From: Muribaculaceae bacterium
Lineage (GTDB): Bacteria > Bacillota > Clostridia > Lachnospirales > Lachnospiraceae
DNA length: 64,000 bases
Reading direction: 5' to 3'
Assembly: GCA_023666425.1 (NCBI GenBank)
Contig: JAMPCA010000001.1
Coordinates: 194,216-258,215 of the forward strand
Shown: in pieces, positions 28,386 through 62,860 of the stretch
Layout of the letters: every line of letters starts with the position of its first letter
How positions within the stretch are numbered: position 1 is the first letter of the stretch
Notes under the pieces: model-generated
What the model saw: the letters and a program-made list of their open reading frames with translations, nothing else
Told to the model about the DNA's origin: nothing
Databases searched by the model: none
Made by a program: the position numbers and the translations under genes

Positions 28386-28426
28386 CAAAAGAAAGGGAAC
28401 CCTCTACAAGATGTAGAGGATTCCCC
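28386..28426 (-). terminator. Terminator after the stomatin-like gene
   Basis: Long hairpin with arms 28395-28409 and 28413-28426 (mostly paired around CCTCTACA/TGTAGAGG), followed on the minus strand by TTTCTTTT. Lies 24 bases after the gene's stop codon. Confidence 0.8.
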
Positions 28427-28449
28427 GAATCCATACAACAATATCTATT

Positions 28450-29376
28450 CTACACGTCCTTCGCCGCTTCGACAATGGACTTGGAAAGCCCCGCGATTCC
28501 CTGAATCTCGGAAGGAATTATAATTTTCGTCGCCTGCCCGTCCGCGGCCTTGGCGAATGCCTCCAGACTCTTGAGCTGAAGCACCGCGCTGTCCGGCCCG
28601 GCCTCCTTTAGCATACGAAGTCCGTCCGCATTGGCCTGCTGAATCTTAAGAATGGCTTCCGCCTGACCCTCGGCCTCCTTGACAGTGGCCTCCCGCTTTG
28701 CCTCGGCGCGAAGGATCGCCGCCTGCTTCTCCGCCTCTGCGTCCAGAATCGCGGACTCCTTATTACCCTCCGCCACAAGAATCGTGGACTTCTTTTCACC
28801 CTCGGCACGAAGAATCGCCTCACGGCGCTCACGCTCCGCCTTCATCTGCTTCTCCATCGCATCCTGAATAGCCTTCGGCGGAATGATGTTTTTGAGCTCG
28901 ACACGGTTCACCTTGATACCCCACGGGTCGGTAGCCTCGTCCAGTGTCGCGCGCATCTTTGTATTGATCGTCTCTCTCGAAGTCAGCGTCTCGTCCAGCT
29001 CCATATCACCGATAATATTACGGAGCGTGGTCGCGGTCAGGTTCTCGATCGCCATGATCGGATTCTCCACACCATACGCATACAGCTTCGGATCTGTAAT
29101 CTGGAAATACACGACCGTGTCAATCTGCATGGTCACGTTATCCTTCGTGATGACCGGCTGGGGCGGAAAATCCACCACCTGCTCCTTTAAAGTAACACGC
29201 CTTGCCACCCGGTCGATAAAAGGCCATTTGAAGTGAAGTCCCACTGACCATGTCGTCAGATAACCTCCCAGACGCTCCACCACCATCGCCGTTGCCTGCG
29301 GAACGATCTTCACGCATCTTGCAAGGATGATGAGAAGAATAACCAAAATAACCAATAGTGTAATAATTGGGCCCAT
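28450..29376 (-). CDS. SPFH-domain stomatin/flotillin-like membrane protein
   Basis: 308 residues. One N-terminal membrane helix (about 4-20) precedes a band-7/SPFH domain (VVERLGGYLTTWSVGLHFKWP, VDTVVYFQITDPKLYAYG, LDETLTSRETINTKMR), then a long charged helical coiled-coil rich in Ala, Glu and Lys (about 190-260). Such proteins form oligomeric scaffolds in membrane microdomains, often with an NfeD partner. The NfeD-type gene sits 14 bases upstream in the same transcript. AAAGGAGG precedes the ATG. Confidence 0.9.
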   Translation of the reverse strand: MGPIITLLVILVILLIILARCVKIVPQATAMVVERLGGYLTTWSVGLHFKWPFIDRVARRVTLKEQVVDFPPQPVITKDNVTMQIDTVVYFQITDPKLYAYGVENPIMAIENLTATTLRNIIGDMELDETLTSRETINTKMRATLDEATDPWGIKVNRVELKNIIPPKAIQDAMEKQMKAERERREAILRAEGEKKSTILVAEGNKESAILDAEAEKQAAILRAEAKREATVKEAEGQAEAILKIQQANADGLRMLKEAGPDSAVLQLKSLEAFAKAADGQATKIIIPSEIQGIAGLSKSIVEAAKDV

Positions 29377-57022: not shown

Positions 57023-57751
57023 TTACATAAAATATTTACATTTTTCAAAATAAAATTGTTGCTCTCCTTCAAAAAGCTTAATCAATTTATCCTGCTTTTT
57101 TTCTTCTCTATATTCTTTTAATGATTCCAAATAATCATCTCTATTCGCATCCTCAATCACAACCGGCGCAATTTCATTCTTTAAGCATTCTCTAAAAAGA
57201 ATGAGTCTGCCAGTTCTTCCGTTTCCGTCTTGAAATGGATGAATGCTCTCATACCTTGCATGAAACTCAGCCAATACAGAAACATCTATCATTTGGTTAT
57301 TATACCACTCCATCAACAGATACATTTCCTGGGCTACATCTTCCGGTCTTGTCGTCTGGTATATACCAATCATATTAGGACGCTCTTTATAATCTCCAAT
57401 GGCATATCCATTGGCACGATCTTCAAATACGCCAGATTTCAACTCATAATGAAACTGTTTAATCAATTCTTGTGTTAATGGCTTGTCCAGAGTGTCCAGC
57501 ATCTTATTAAACATCAAGAAATGTCCATTCATTTCCTCAACATCTTTTGCTCTATAATAGTTATCTGATCTGGGCAAAGTGCCGTTATCAAACAAAGATG
57601 CCGTTTGTTCCTCAGTGAGTGTACTTCCTTCAATTTTGTTTGAATTATAAGCTAACAAACGCTGCGTAAAAGCATAAACGCCTGTTCTGTCAAACTTTTC
57701 TCTTTCCACTTTGAATCTTTCGAGAAGAAACATTAAAAACTCTTTACTCAT
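57023..57751 (-). CDS. Fic-family protein (probable AMP-transferase)
   Basis: About 242 residues. The Fic motif is complete: IHPFQDGNGRTGRLILF, catalytic His near residue 171. An inhibitory helix motif S/TxxxE(G/N) is seen early in the protein (NSNKIEGST, Glu near residue 41), so this is an autoinhibited class II Fic. DVEEMNGHFLMF is a further family block. Fic enzymes usually attach AMP to target proteins. ATG 57751 is preferred over 57781. It follows yefM-yoeB-MBL on the same strand. Confidence 0.92.
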   Translation of the reverse strand: MSKEFLMFLLERFKVEREKFDRTGVYAFTQRLLAYNSNKIEGSTLTEEQTASLFDNGTLPRSDNYYRAKDVEEMNGHFLMFNKMLDTLDKPLTQELIKQFHYELKSGVFEDRANGYAIGDYKERPNMIGIYQTTRPEDVAQEMYLLMEWYNNQMIDVSVLAEFHARYESIHPFQDGNGRTGRLILFRECLKNEIAPVVIEDANRDDYLESLKEYREEKKQDKLIKLFEGEQQFYFEKCKYFM

Positions 57752-57815
57752 TTCATTTACCTTTCCTAATTTCTGCCACAAAACTAGAAATTCATTGATT
57801 TATTCCATATTCTTC

Positions 57816-58632: not shown

Positions 58633-58890
58633 TTAATTCTCCATCGACAGAAGCTCGTCCATAGTCTTCGTCACTACCTGCCCATTTTTAATTTGTTCAT
58701 CTGCCTTGTTTGATTTTTTTAAATATTCAGCATTTCTTTTTGCCTTTGCTAACTCATTGTATTCTGATTCAGATATAATAACAACATTTTTATTTTCTTG
58801 ACAAGACACTACCACTGGTTCACCCTCAAATGCCATGTCAAAATATTTTTTAATATTTTCTCTTACTTCTATCTGTTTTGTTGCAATCAT
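58633..58890 (-). CDS. yefM: YefM/Phd-family antitoxin
   Basis: 85 residues. KQIEVRENIKKYFDMAFEGE and NVVIISESEYNELAKAKRNA are YefM/Phd hallmarks (DNA-binding N-terminal domain, then a disordered C-terminal toxin-binding tail). It would repress its own operon and bind YoeB. Its partner here is internally shortened. AGAGGGGCATT precedes the ATG. Confidence 0.9.
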   Translation of the reverse strand: MIATKQIEVRENIKKYFDMAFEGEPVVVSCQENKNVVIISESEYNELAKAKRNAEYLKKSNKADEQIKNGQVVTKTMDELLSMEN

Positions 58891-58997: not shown

Positions 58998-60254
58998 CTA
59001 TCCTTTACTCCTGGGGAAAGTCAGGACACTTTTAAAGGTATCCCCCTCCAGCACAATCTCAAAGCTCCCGCCAAGCATATTGGTATATGTCTCCACAATC
59101 GCAAGTCCCAGACCATTTCCCTCTGTGTTGCGGGATTGATCCCCCCGGATAAACCGCGCCTTCACTGTCTCCGGTTCAAATTCAATCGGATAGTTGGACA
59201 CATTTATTATCTCACAGACAACTCTTTTCTCCTGCATCTTTACCCTTATAAAGATGCGGGTGCCATCAAGAGAATACTTTATTGCATTCTCTACCAGATT
59301 TTGTATGATTCGATAAAGGTATGTGCTGTCTGCCTGTACCATCGTCTCTTTTTCTGGAAAATCCAGTTTCAGTATCTTTTTCTTTTCTGTTATAGATTCG
59401 TCCCAGTCTGCAAGTATCTGTTTTATAAGTCTGCTCAGATCCAGCTCTTTTATTTCCAATTTGATATTGCCGCTGGAAGCCTTGGCGAGCTCGAAGACAT
59501 TCTCTACCATTTTCTTTAGAATATCCGTTTTTCTCGAAAGCACTTCGATATATTTTTCCATTGTCTCAGAGTTTTCTTCTTTTTTCATCAGCTCAATATA
59601 GCCAATCACAGAAGTGAGCGGTGTTTTCAAATCATGGGATACATTTGTAATCAGCTCGATTTTCATTCGTTCACTCTTGACCTGCTCCTCCACAGCGGTA
59701 TGCACCCTCTCCTCTAACTCTGCCATGAGTTCTTTTTGTGTCTTATTCTGTTCTGACATTTCAAAATTTATTGTTACAAGCTCCTGCAATATTTTCAGGC
59801 AAAGTGGGAGTACAAAGCTGAAAATTGGGCCAGTCAAGAGTGCCAGTGCAATCCAGTCCATGTTGTATCTATATAATTCCCCCAATATACTATCAGAGAG
59901 ACTAAATAGAGGTCTGTATAATCTCAAGGTGCTGACACTCAGACACCGGAGAAGAAGATAGATGACAAAAAAGTAAGCTACACCTGCATAGATGCATCTT
60001 TTCTGCACTGTCTTTAGCTTTTCAACATAGACCTTTACGTCGCCTCTATATTTCTTTTCCACATACCTAAATATCCATTCTGCAAAACAGAATAGTATAT
60101 ATGCCATTCCCAGAACAAAGGTAAGATTCAATACAGGATAATTCGTATACTTATAAATTTCCAATATTACAAATACCAGAGCAATCACTGTATAAATTGC
60201 AATTACACTTACTATTATTTTTTTCTTATCAATATTTTTCCATTTTATATCCAA
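58998..60254 (-). CDS. VanS-like sensor histidine kinase
   Basis: 418 residues. Membrane helices near 13-33, 42-62, 88-108 and 133-155 precede a coiled-coil linker (EQNKTQKELMAELEERVHTA), HisKA with the phospho-His in ELITNVSHDLKTPLTSVIGY, and HATPase (NLVENAIKYSLDG, GNGLGLAIVETYTNM). It overlaps its regulator gene by 26 bases, so translation is coupled. No transporter or resistance gene is adjacent to suggest the stimulus. Confidence 0.92.
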   Translation of the reverse strand: MDIKWKNIDKKKIIVSVIAIYTVIALVFVILEIYKYTNYPVLNLTFVLGMAYILFCFAEWIFRYVEKKYRGDVKVYVEKLKTVQKRCIYAGVAYFFVIYLLLRCLSVSTLRLYRPLFSLSDSILGELYRYNMDWIALALLTGPIFSFVLPLCLKILQELVTINFEMSEQNKTQKELMAELEERVHTAVEEQVKSERMKIELITNVSHDLKTPLTSVIGYIELMKKEENSETMEKYIEVLSRKTDILKKMVENVFELAKASSGNIKLEIKELDLSRLIKQILADWDESITEKKKILKLDFPEKETMVQADSTYLYRIIQNLVENAIKYSLDGTRIFIRVKMQEKRVVCEIINVSNYPIEFEPETVKARFIRGDQSRNTEGNGLGLAIVETYTNMLGGSFEIVLEGDTFKSVLTFPRSKG

Positions 60255-60939
60255 TGCCCCACACCACCTTTAAATATTTTGGTTTTCTTGGTACTACTTC
60301 TATTTTTTCACGGATTCTGCGGATATGAACCATGACGGTATTTTCCACCATATAGTCACTGTCCTCATTCCATATCCGTTCATAAATTTCCTCTGCGGAG
60401 AAAACTCTTCCCATATTGCTCATTAACAAATATAAAATTTTGTATTCTGTAGCAGTCAAATGCTTTTCCTCACCATCTACAACAACGGTTTTATTTTCCA
60501 GCATTAGCTTGATATTTCCATTGACAATTACATTCTCCTGAACTTTCTCTTGTGTTTTTTCCTCACTCCACGCCCGGTATCTTCGAAGCAAAGCTTTCAC
60601 TCTCGCTATCAGTTCTGAGGGATTGTAAGGTTTGCTGATATAATCATCTGCTCCAGAGACTAATCCATATACTTTATCTCTGTCTTGTGTTTTTGCAGAA
60701 AGAATAATAACTGGAATATGACTCTTTTCCCGTATTTTCATCAGCGTCTCAATTCCATCAAGCTTTGGCATCATCACATCTAAAAGAATCAGATCTACAT
60801 TTTGTTGTTCCAGCCTTTCAAGCGCTTCTATTCCATTATAGGCACGGATGATTTGAAAACCTTCATATTCTAATAGCTTTGCTATAGAAAACACGATTTC
60901 TTTATCATCGTCCGCGACAAGTATTAGCTGCTGTTCCAT
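60229..60939 (-). CDS. VanR-like OmpR-family response regulator
   Basis: 236 residues. Receiver motifs ILVADDDKEIVFSIAKLLEY, LILLDVMMPKLDG (phospho-Asp) and DDYISKPYNP; winged-helix DNA-binding domain with HLTATEYKILYLLMSNMGR and YLKVVWGIGYKME. GGAAGGGAGGTAGAA precedes the ATG. First gene of the pair with the VanS-like kinase. Confidence 0.93.
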   Translation of the reverse strand: MEQQLILVADDDKEIVFSIAKLLEYEGFQIIRAYNGIEALERLEQQNVDLILLDVMMPKLDGIETLMKIREKSHIPVIILSAKTQDRDKVYGLVSGADDYISKPYNPSELIARVKALLRRYRAWSEEKTQEKVQENVIVNGNIKLMLENKTVVVDGEEKHLTATEYKILYLLMSNMGRVFSAEEIYERIWNEDSDYMVENTVMVHIRRIREKIEVVPRKPKYLKVVWGIGYKMEKY

Positions 60940-61058: not shown

Positions 61059-61074
61059 TGTTTCACGTGAAACA
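61059..61074. other. parS site (ParB/Spo0J binding) 1
   Basis: TGTTTCACGTGAAACA, a perfect match to the Firmicutes parS consensus (TGTTNCACGTGAAACA) in the intergenic region. ParB binds such sites, usually clustered near the replication origin, to segregate chromosomes. Confidence 0.9.
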
Positions 61075-61156
61075 TCTTGTTATTTGTTTTCAAAATATTG
61101 TATTTTGATAAACTGTCAAAAACAAAATATGGTAGATTTTCTATATTTATTTAATT

Positions 61157-61192
61157 AAAAAGAGAATGTTTCACGTGAAACATTCTCTTTTT
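61157..61192. other. parS site 2 embedded in a terminator palindrome
   Basis: The same 16-base parS sequence at 61167-61182 forms the centre of a perfect 36-base palindrome whose arms end in A and T runs. It starts one base after the stop codon of the DegU-like gene and, read on that strand, is a rho-independent terminator with a T tail. The two parS copies are 108 bases apart centre to centre. Confidence 0.9.
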
Positions 61193-61193
61193 C

Positions 61194-61838
61194 TTAATAG
61201 AGCTTTATCAAATTATTTCGAATTGCAAATACTGCTGCCTGCGTCCGGTCTGTAACCTCTAGTTTTTTAAATATATTTGAAACATGATTCTTTACAGTAC
61301 GCTCACTTATGTTCAATTTTACAGCAACTTCTTTATTATACATTCCGACAGCTAAAAGCTTTAATACTTCCAACTCTCTACGGGTAAGACTATCAATCCT
61401 GCTTTCATCCTCATTCTTTTCAATCATTTTAGAATTCAGCATAGGAATCAAACTGGGTTGTATATAAGTCTCTCCTTCCATGATTGAAAATATTGCCTTC
61501 TTTAATTCTGCAGATTCAGAATCTTTGAGTACATAACCATTGACTCCTATATCAACAGCTTTCATTAAATATTCAATTTCATTGTGGACTGTCAGGACAA
61601 GAACCTTTAACTTTGATTTCTGATTCTTGAGACTTTCTAACACTTCCAGTCCATTCTTTTTTGGCATATTGATATCTAACAAAAGCACATCCGGTTCTAC
61701 AAGTTTTAATTTTTCAAGACAATCCTCTCCGTCCTCCGCTTCTGCAATTACTTCTATATCACCCTCTAATTCCAAAAGCTTTTTTAATCCTTCACGAATC
61801 ATAGAGTGATCGTCCGTAATCATAATCTTTACCGCCAT
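61194..61838 (-). CDS. NarL/LuxR-family response regulator (DegU-like)
   Basis: 214 residues. Receiver motifs IMITDDHSMIREGLKKLLEL, VLLLDINMPKKNG (phospho-Asp) and GYVLKD; the LuxR-type helix-turn-helix reads LTRRELEVLKLLAVGMYNKE, LNISERTVKNHVSNIFKKL. AAGGAGG precedes ATG 61838, which shares its A with the TGA of the kinase gene (TGATG), so translation is coupled. Ends one base before the parS palindrome. Confidence 0.93.
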   Translation of the reverse strand: MAVKIMITDDHSMIREGLKKLLELEGDIEVIAEAEDGEDCLEKLKLVEPDVLLLDINMPKKNGLEVLESLKNQKSKLKVLVLTVHNEIEYLMKAVDIGVNGYVLKDSESAELKKAIFSIMEGETYIQPSLIPMLNSKMIEKNEDESRIDSLTRRELEVLKLLAVGMYNKEVAVKLNISERTVKNHVSNIFKKLEVTDRTQAAVFAIRNNLIKLY

Positions 61839-62860
61839 CACTTCTCCTCCTTACTATTCGATATCGCCACCTCAATCACACATCCATTTCCCGGACTGGA
61901 CCGAATATTCAATTTTCCCGATAACAGATAAACACGCTCCTTCATCATTGACATTCCAAATCCGGAATTATCCTCCCTTGAAGAATCCGGTATTGTATTC
62001 ACATCAAATCCTTTTCCATCATCTGCAATACGAAGTATTAACTGTTCTTCTTCGTAAATTAAATAAACATCCAGACGAGATGCATGTGCATGTTTTGAAG
62101 CATTATTACAAGCCTCCTGGATTACCCGAAGAAGAGTGAGCTGCACGACAGAATTCAATGGATAAGGCTCCCCCTCGACATGATAATAGCACAGAATATT
62201 ATTGAGCTTTCTAAATTTATCCAAAGTACGCTCCACTGTCACATCAAAGCCAATATCATCCAATGACATCGGGCGCAAATCAAAGATCATCTTGCGCATT
62301 TCATCAATGACTTCCCGGAGAGTTTTATTTATAGCTAAAAGCTCAAGCTTGCATCTCACCGGATCCACATCCAGCAGCTTCGTACACAGTTCTGTCTTAT
62401 GCACAAGAGATGTAAGATTCTGTGTCGTAGAATCATGCAAATCCCTTGCAATCCGCTGACGCTCCGTCTCCACTGTCTGAAGCAGTGCCATCTTCATATC
62501 TTCGGTAAAATCGTCCAGTGAATCTGAAGTATCTTCGGTCGCCACCTTAATGACACTCGTAATCTCATCAATTTTATAGTCCATTTCACTGAGCTGATTC
62601 CGAAGCTCCGTTACCTGCCCGGTAAGCTCCTTTTGTTCCTCCTGCAGCTCAACAATTTTTTGACGATTAAAAGCATTCACTTCTCTCGGAGTAAAAGCCT
62701 CATAATTTGAATCATGGGTATCCAAAACCTGGATAAATTGGATATTTTCTTTTATCTTATTTTCCGTAGAATGAATTTGCTCTTTAATAAGAAGCCTTTG
62801 TTCCAGAAAAGCTTCTTTCATTTTTTCCAAATATTCTTTTACCATATCATACCAAAACAT
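61838..62860 (-). CDS. Cytoplasmic DegS-like sensor histidine kinase
   Basis: 340 residues with no membrane helix. Residues 1-125 are coiled coil (KIVELQEEQKELTGQVTELR). The HisKA_3 box is ERQRIARDLHDSTTQNLTSL (phospho-His in RDLHDS), and the HATPase shows RVIQEACNNASKHAHAS, IADDGKGFD and GFGMSMMKERVYLLSG. Layout and sequence style match DegS, which senses cytoplasmic signals and phosphorylates DegU. The ribosome site before ATG 62860 is poor, and ATG 62845 is possible. Divergent from the hydrolase-like gene. Confidence 0.9.
   Translation of the reverse strand: MFWYDMVKEYLEKMKEAFLEQRLLIKEQIHSTENKIKENIQFIQVLDTHDSNYEAFTPREVNAFNRQKIVELQEEQKELTGQVTELRNQLSEMDYKIDEITSVIKVATEDTSDSLDDFTEDMKMALLQTVETERQRIARDLHDSTTQNLTSLVHKTELCTKLLDVDPVRCKLELLAINKTLREVIDEMRKMIFDLRPMSLDDIGFDVTVERTLDKFRKLNNILCYYHVEGEPYPLNSVVQLTLLRVIQEACNNASKHAHASRLDVYLIYEEEQLILRIADDGKGFDVNTIPDSSREDNSGFGMSMMKERVYLLSGKLNIRSSPGNGCVIEVAISNSKEEK

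Follow-up and report, generated by a model that had tools for sequence, protein, structure and literature searches.

The closest described systems to the locus studied here are the chromosomal ParABS system of Bacillota, which consists of parS sites, the Spo0J/ParB protein and the Soj/ParA protein, the NrdR operators of ribonucleotide reductase promoters and the comCDE region of Streptococcus pneumoniae. ParB is loaded at parS and then moves along the DNA as a sliding CTP clamp, whose spreading in vitro can be attenuated by a repressor bound to the DNA (PMC7053999, excerpts). NrdR is a known repressor of promoters, its sites are paired 16 bp palindromes with mostly 15-16 bp between them, it binds with ATP and dATP, and two boxes are needed in both species discussed in the accessible text (PMC12051234). 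According to the available part of a review, mutating one parS in S. pneumoniae raised the expression of comCDE 5 kb away (PMC7022226).

The locus at positions 61,059-61,192 of the analysed stretch of DNA (the window, 64,000 bp in total) shares with Bacillota ParABS the exact parS 16-mer, the clustering near dnaA and the presence of genes for both ParA and ParB. It differs in that parAB lie away from the parS locus, one parS forms the apex of a terminator and a putative NrdR-type operator is positioned between the parS sites. Like the reductase operators in the accessible text (PMC12051234), this element has two 16 bp boxes with a 16 bp spacer and starts 32 bp apart, and its box words resemble those of same-genus nrdD promoters. 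Unlike them, it has no reductase gene behind it and is fixed to parS and not to a -10 element, and in 11 other genera a parS overlaps box 1 and the spacer. As in the excerpted comCDE case a parS is found near a two-component operon; there it lies 5 kb off, whereas here it is located at the 3' end of the operon and fused with a terminator (PMC7022226). This terminator has the perfect stem and following U run of an intrinsic terminator, one base past a stop codon, and differs from an ordinary one in that its apex is probably a DNA site for protein binding, with fixed letters.

parS sites near the origin and the position of parAB

The two parS copies, already seen in the initial annotation, are perfect 16-mers without assigned strand at 61,059-61,074 (inner copy, on the side where relatives carry parA) and 61,167-61,182 (outer copy, core of a hairpin), 108 bp apart from start to start. 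Nothing else in the window matches at up to three mismatches; 0.18 matches were expected, and two such matches arose in 2 of 100 shuffles. We located all parS copies in the genome (2.74 Mb, 28 contigs, 98.11% complete; the window is C11:194216-258215) and found no perfect copy besides these two. The single copy with two mismatches falls inside an ORF, and a reversed-pattern control likewise gave one match.

The start of dnaA is about 10 kb from the parS pair, with a confirmed rsmG in between, and the proposed origin-proximal placement is confirmed. In the stretch towards dnaA there are also genes which we take, from the appearance of their ORFs, to be mnmG, mnmE, jag, yidC, yidD and rnpA. Copy count and distance to dnaA together exclude a window far from the origin with many such palindromes genome-wide. 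The gdpP-rplI-dnaB genes, which had been named as a further sign of origin proximity, are supported for DnaB and L9, both above the NCBIfam cut-offs, while the GdpP-like protein stays below the cut-off of the GdpP-L9 fusion model. As rare 16-mers clustered near the origin, the two sites are genuine parS sites, an ordinary and well supported assignment. In one complete genome of the genus (L072:3006; G008:C1:1938005) an extra perfect parS is located 1.5 Mb from the origin-side cluster, far round the chromosome.

The genome encodes one ParB-family protein (TIGR00180, above cut-off). Its best matches among solved structures (PDB) are ParB and Spo0J chains, with Noc chains weaker. The Noc model TIGR04285 outscores TIGR00180 on this protein, yet remains below its own cut-off. 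The specificity positions presumably bear ParB-type letters, and the protein is of the parS-binding type.

Within the genus, perfect parS sites were found in 38 of 62 genomes and in 25 of the 30 good ones. Origin stretches were taken from all 38 parS-positive genomes, our own included, and from two ParB-positive genomes without parS. The usual gene order is rsmG, hydrolase, degS, degU, one to four parS, parA and parB, with parA in 31 of 33 loci and degS together with degU in 25 of 33; the remaining two of the 33 are contig pieces without parA, degS and degU. In L066 and L067 the parS precedes degS. parS, ParB and DegS are jointly missing from 5 of the 30 good genomes (G029, G030, G034, G042 and G060), which we dropped as evidence, since the genes are adjacent in the genus and one missing contig would explain their joint absence.

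In our genome the parA and parB genes are on contig C10 with cysK in front, and not on C11, where the parS pair is followed by an OmpR-type two-component system. Its response regulator (60,229-60,939, minus strand) occupies the place that parA has in relatives and is followed by its partner sensor kinase (58,998-60,254, minus strand; HisKA and HATPase_c). No parS and no boxes were found in the 20 kb examined around parAB. A TGTGTTATAGTGG stretch, which resembles the parA -10 of relatives, precedes parA on C10; since this -10-like stretch is kept there without parS, the break appears to have occurred between parS and the parA -10. The separation could also be a misassembly. In two relatives that are close by their ParB, the gap between parS and parA is 7.5 kb (G053) or holds two ORFs (G061). 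On C10 a NUDIX-like ORF (L007:12792-13355) is positioned between parA and parB, and was not seen there in the relatives examined.

A terminator-like hairpin with parS at its apex

The outer parS is the centre of a perfect 36 bp palindrome at 61,157-61,192 with arms of 18. On the minus strand, one base separates it from the end of the DegU-like response regulator gene (61,194-61,841; receiver and LuxR-type HTH), which is preceded by a DegS-like sensor kinase gene (61,838-62,860, minus strand; HisKA_3 and HATPase_c). The palindrome folds with -19.8 kcal/mol on the minus strand (z -7.4) and -19.0 on the plus strand, and 0 of 200 shuffles were equally stable; the copy at 61,059 folds far more weakly (-8.6 and -5.7 kcal/mol). 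The T tail described in the initial annotation is present, yet the U run is base-paired to a run of A within the stem. This pairing is also why a generic consensus terminator scan did not list 61,157-61,192. With a stable hairpin and a U run 3' of a gene, the element has the features of an intrinsic terminator, which we assign from the fold and from covariation in the genus to the minus strand and the degS-degU-like operon.

We compared 82 parS sites from 38 loci of the genus, after dropping L068 as a copy of L153; one site was truncated at the end of a contig. A fixed rule classes the first parS towards parA as terminator-like in 15 of 37 cases, with 1.9 expected from shuffled flanks and at most 7 in 500 rounds, and later parS sites in 5 of 45 in the same direction. 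In the opposite direction the counts are 2/37 for the first and 8/45 for later sites. At positions 10-17 from the centre, 185 of 296 pairs are Watson-Crick for the first parS, whereas permuting the right flanks among species gives 121.0 (sd 7.5, at most 151 in 2000 rounds). For later parS sites the count is 149 of 360, against 151.0 when permuted. Stem positions 11-13 vary in pair type (A-T, G-C, T-A and C-G) among 15 sites; these were picked for perfect arms, so the permutation test alone counts. Outside the genus the excess is smaller (58/112 against 40.3, sd 5.0, at most 59) in 14 hand-picked loci in which degU directly precedes a perfect parS. Against a terminator role speaks, besides the missing entry in the generic scan, that 18 of the 37 first sites are not unusually stable, compared with 40 of the 45 later ones.

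Given the stem-like covariation of the sequences flanking the first parS in the genus, the fusion of parS and terminator is real, and the earlier description of one parS as part of a terminator-like hairpin extends to relatives. It thus appears that ParB maintains the core and termination the stem. Such a parS-capped terminator would expose one sequence to two simultaneous selections, one on the protein site in the DNA and one on the hairpin in the RNA. The accessible parts of the literature on parS or ParB with intrinsic terminators (including PMC12779278) contained no description of a parS fused with a terminator.

The hairpin with its U run also fits palindromes that act as terminators only, with ParB not binding here. 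We regard this as highly improbable, since the outer stem varies around a core that is exactly the parS 16-mer, the 61,059 copy folds much more weakly, the genome holds no further copies and relatives keep parS beside parA.

Tandem NrdR-type boxes at fixed distances from parS

Aligning the inter-parS stretches of 18 loci revealed a tandem repeat with a period of 32 bp, whose words resemble the nrdD promoter of our own genome. At our locus, box 1 is CTACCATATTTTGTTT (61,120-61,135, minus strand), which starts 32 bp before box 2, ATACAATATTTTGAAA (61,088-61,103, minus strand). DnaA boxes had been considered as the identity of these repeats because of TCCACA words, and were rejected since box 2, judged by eye, is no match for them. 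An initial matrix built from the boxes at parS themselves was circular, and we replaced it by one trained on nrdD promoters only. For this matrix we scored one strand of 30 nrdD loci of the genus against a consensus; a pair was visible in 12, of which 10 promoters chosen by eye (20 boxes, made palindromic) were used, leaving out L094 and L098, reading L073, L090 and L092 at 32 bp spacing and taking for L087 the pair given by the consensus scoring.

With this nrdD-trained matrix our box pair scores 25.3, the top of the 64 kb window. The second-best pair in the window (14.9, at 28,404-28,451) is found just upstream of the gdpP-like-rplI-dnaB genes and overlaps a terminator-like hairpin, so that chance is likely. 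Pair scores of at least 15 were reached in 20 of 40 loci of the genus and in 14 of 80 loci of other genera. The latter come from 250 searched genomes of the family, nearly all of different genera, of which 233 have ParB; the stretch upstream of parA was taken for 80 among the best matches, one per genome. Since 20/40 and 66/80 loci have no pair at this score, the operator is not general.

In each of the 34 loci with a pair of at least 15, that pair lies no more than 150 bp from a parS, and no such pair was found away from parS in 769 kb (the window, 39 genus loci, 80 family loci and two pieces of our own genome). Around nrdD genes there are 49 pairs in 238 kb, training promoters included. Of 80 shuffled stretches none reached a score of 12, 60 column-shuffled palindromic matrices gave a mean of 0.45 hits and at most 4 against 14 with the real matrix, and other box spacings gave 0-3 hits. 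When parS was masked, as its letters might inflate scores in the overlapping form, 16 of 80 loci remained at a score of at least 13, all near parS; the masking admitted two weaker pairs (L222 and L264). We also scored 20 nrdD loci from the 14 other genera, and 10 have a pair of at least 15 in the first 1.9 kb. All 17 genomes checked, ours included, encode NrdR (TIGR00244, above cut-off). One tandem pair (L290:1948-1995, score 20.2) lies near nrdR of G133; it is the sole one away from parS and nrdD in the scanned loci, one in 58 kb around nrdR genes and in about 828 kb scanned outside nrdD loci.

Two 16 bp boxes that match nrdD-promoter boxes, with starts 31-32 bp apart, are the pattern of NrdR operators. 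The location is not that of a reductase operon promoter, the neighbours being two-component genes here and usually parA in the genus. From matrix and spacing we claim the element as an NrdR-type site that is not a reductase promoter. The boxes might instead belong to another factor, or be a remnant, beside an ordinary parS and terminator, and the genus boxes do differ from nrdD boxes at one central position (ATTT for ATAT). We rate this as improbable given that a matrix from nrdD promoters alone finds the boxes, with NrdR spacing, and scores such pairs almost nowhere else.

Counting parS sites with up to one mismatch, the genus spacing is parS-31-box-16-box-12-parS. In 19 of 20 loci box 1 begins 46-49 bp after the start of an upstream parS, and a downstream parS starts 59-61 bp past the start of box 1, with L048 counted via two pairs that have one parS beside each. 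The exception is L044 (38 bp upstream and 68 bp downstream). The inner copy of our locus has the same distance to the boxes as a parS in relatives. For the 14 other genera the distance to the upstream parS is 37-39 bp (10 loci) or 48-51 bp (4 loci), two classes about one helical turn apart. The second parS starts at +11 in 11 of them, where it overlaps the spacer and the end of box 1; in one it starts at +21, and in two at +60 or +61. Two geometries thus occur in Lachnospiraceae, boxes between two parS sites and a parS that overlaps box 1 and the spacer. In some family loci (L199, L202, L203, L208 and others) about two GTGAAACAT half-parS words are found within roughly 100 bp past the overlapping composite.

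The main rival reading is that the boxes are an NrdR operator that regulates transcription of parAB, which would then belong to the NrdR regulon, and that parS merely resides in the same intergenic region. It draws on the repressor role of NrdR at promoters (PMC12051234, accessible text), on the composite lying upstream of parA in most loci of the genus and on a GnTATAAT motif before parA, 58-101 bp past box 2 in 16 of 20 pairs and 164 bp in one; the motif was not found in 3 of the 20 loci. Against it, the boxes hold their distance to parS while that to the -10 varies, which ties them to parS and not to the promoter, and in the nrdD promoters inspected box 2 runs into the -10, unlike here. The composite is also whole where parA no longer adjoins it, in our own genome, G053, G110 and G220. 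With our parAB on a separate contig, NrdR could hardly act on them from this locus; as this break is perhaps recent, the intact composite may be a mere remnant. Control of parAB by NrdR is on balance rather unlikely, and may also hold, alongside other roles, where the usual gene order is kept.

A candidate composite centromere

We favour, at roughly 55% and on the evidence of site arrangement, the reading of 61,059-61,192 as a composite centromere in which dATP-loaded NrdR gates the loading or spreading of ParB. Two parS sites would flank a tandem NrdR operator, ParB would load at both and slide outward, and the outer parS would also serve as terminator of the degS-degU-like operon. NrdR with ATP and dATP would sit on the stretch flanked by the parS sites, or in other genera on a stretch that overlaps one parS, where its occupancy may block, lower or redirect ParB loading or spreading, and centromere activity would then track the deoxynucleotide pool. 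The genuinely deoxynucleotide-gated form of this centromere, with NrdR controlling ParB from a position flanked by parS sites or partly covering one, is put forward tentatively, at somewhat less than even odds. ParB loading and sliding, NrdR occupancy and the NrdR effect on ParB are what we infer here from the parS sites, their uniqueness and origin proximity, the covarying parS-capped hairpin and the NrdR-type boxes at fixed parS distances. As a counter-point, B. subtilis ParB can pass roadblocks through recruitment in trans (PMC9242446, excerpts).

New here is the parS-NrdR composite; its components, parS, NrdR operator and terminator, are of known kinds. Through this arrangement, present in many relatives, chromosome segregation may be coupled to how well the cell is supplied with DNA precursors. 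If the gating is true, origin segregation, SMC loading or the control of initiation through Soj and DnaA would track the dNTP pool. With a reductase-repressor operator joined to a centromere, a link between dNTP level and ParB action is directly testable. We are not aware of any cis element that chromosome segregation and DNA-precursor supply have in common, and found none described in the accessible parts of the literature. The accessible papers on NrdR with parS, Spo0J or ParB (including PMC3781837, PMC9736018 and PMC4989314; regulon databases were outside the scope) likewise contained no description of NrdR sites at parS.

The composite is a larger finding than the reading in the initial annotation, which is partly supported and incomplete, having overlooked the departure of parAB from the locus and the tandem operator between the parS sites. 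Its assignment of two-component systems to both sides is confirmed, with a HisKA_3 kinase and LuxR-type regulator on one side and an OmpR-type regulator and HisKA kinase on the other. It had proposed that spreading ParB regulates both systems, which is compatible with any of the other readings and has the position of parS between them and the comCDE precedent (PMC7022226, available part) in its favour. The same source reports that loss of ParB alters few genes in most species tested, and with degS and degU in 25 of 33 loci against 31 of 33 for parA, the two-component pair is the less constant neighbour; we consider such regulation doubtful. Beyond the OmpR-type system, the window encodes a Phd/YefM-like antitoxin ORF (58,633-58,890), slightly below the Pfam cut-off, and a Fic-domain protein (57,023-57,781).
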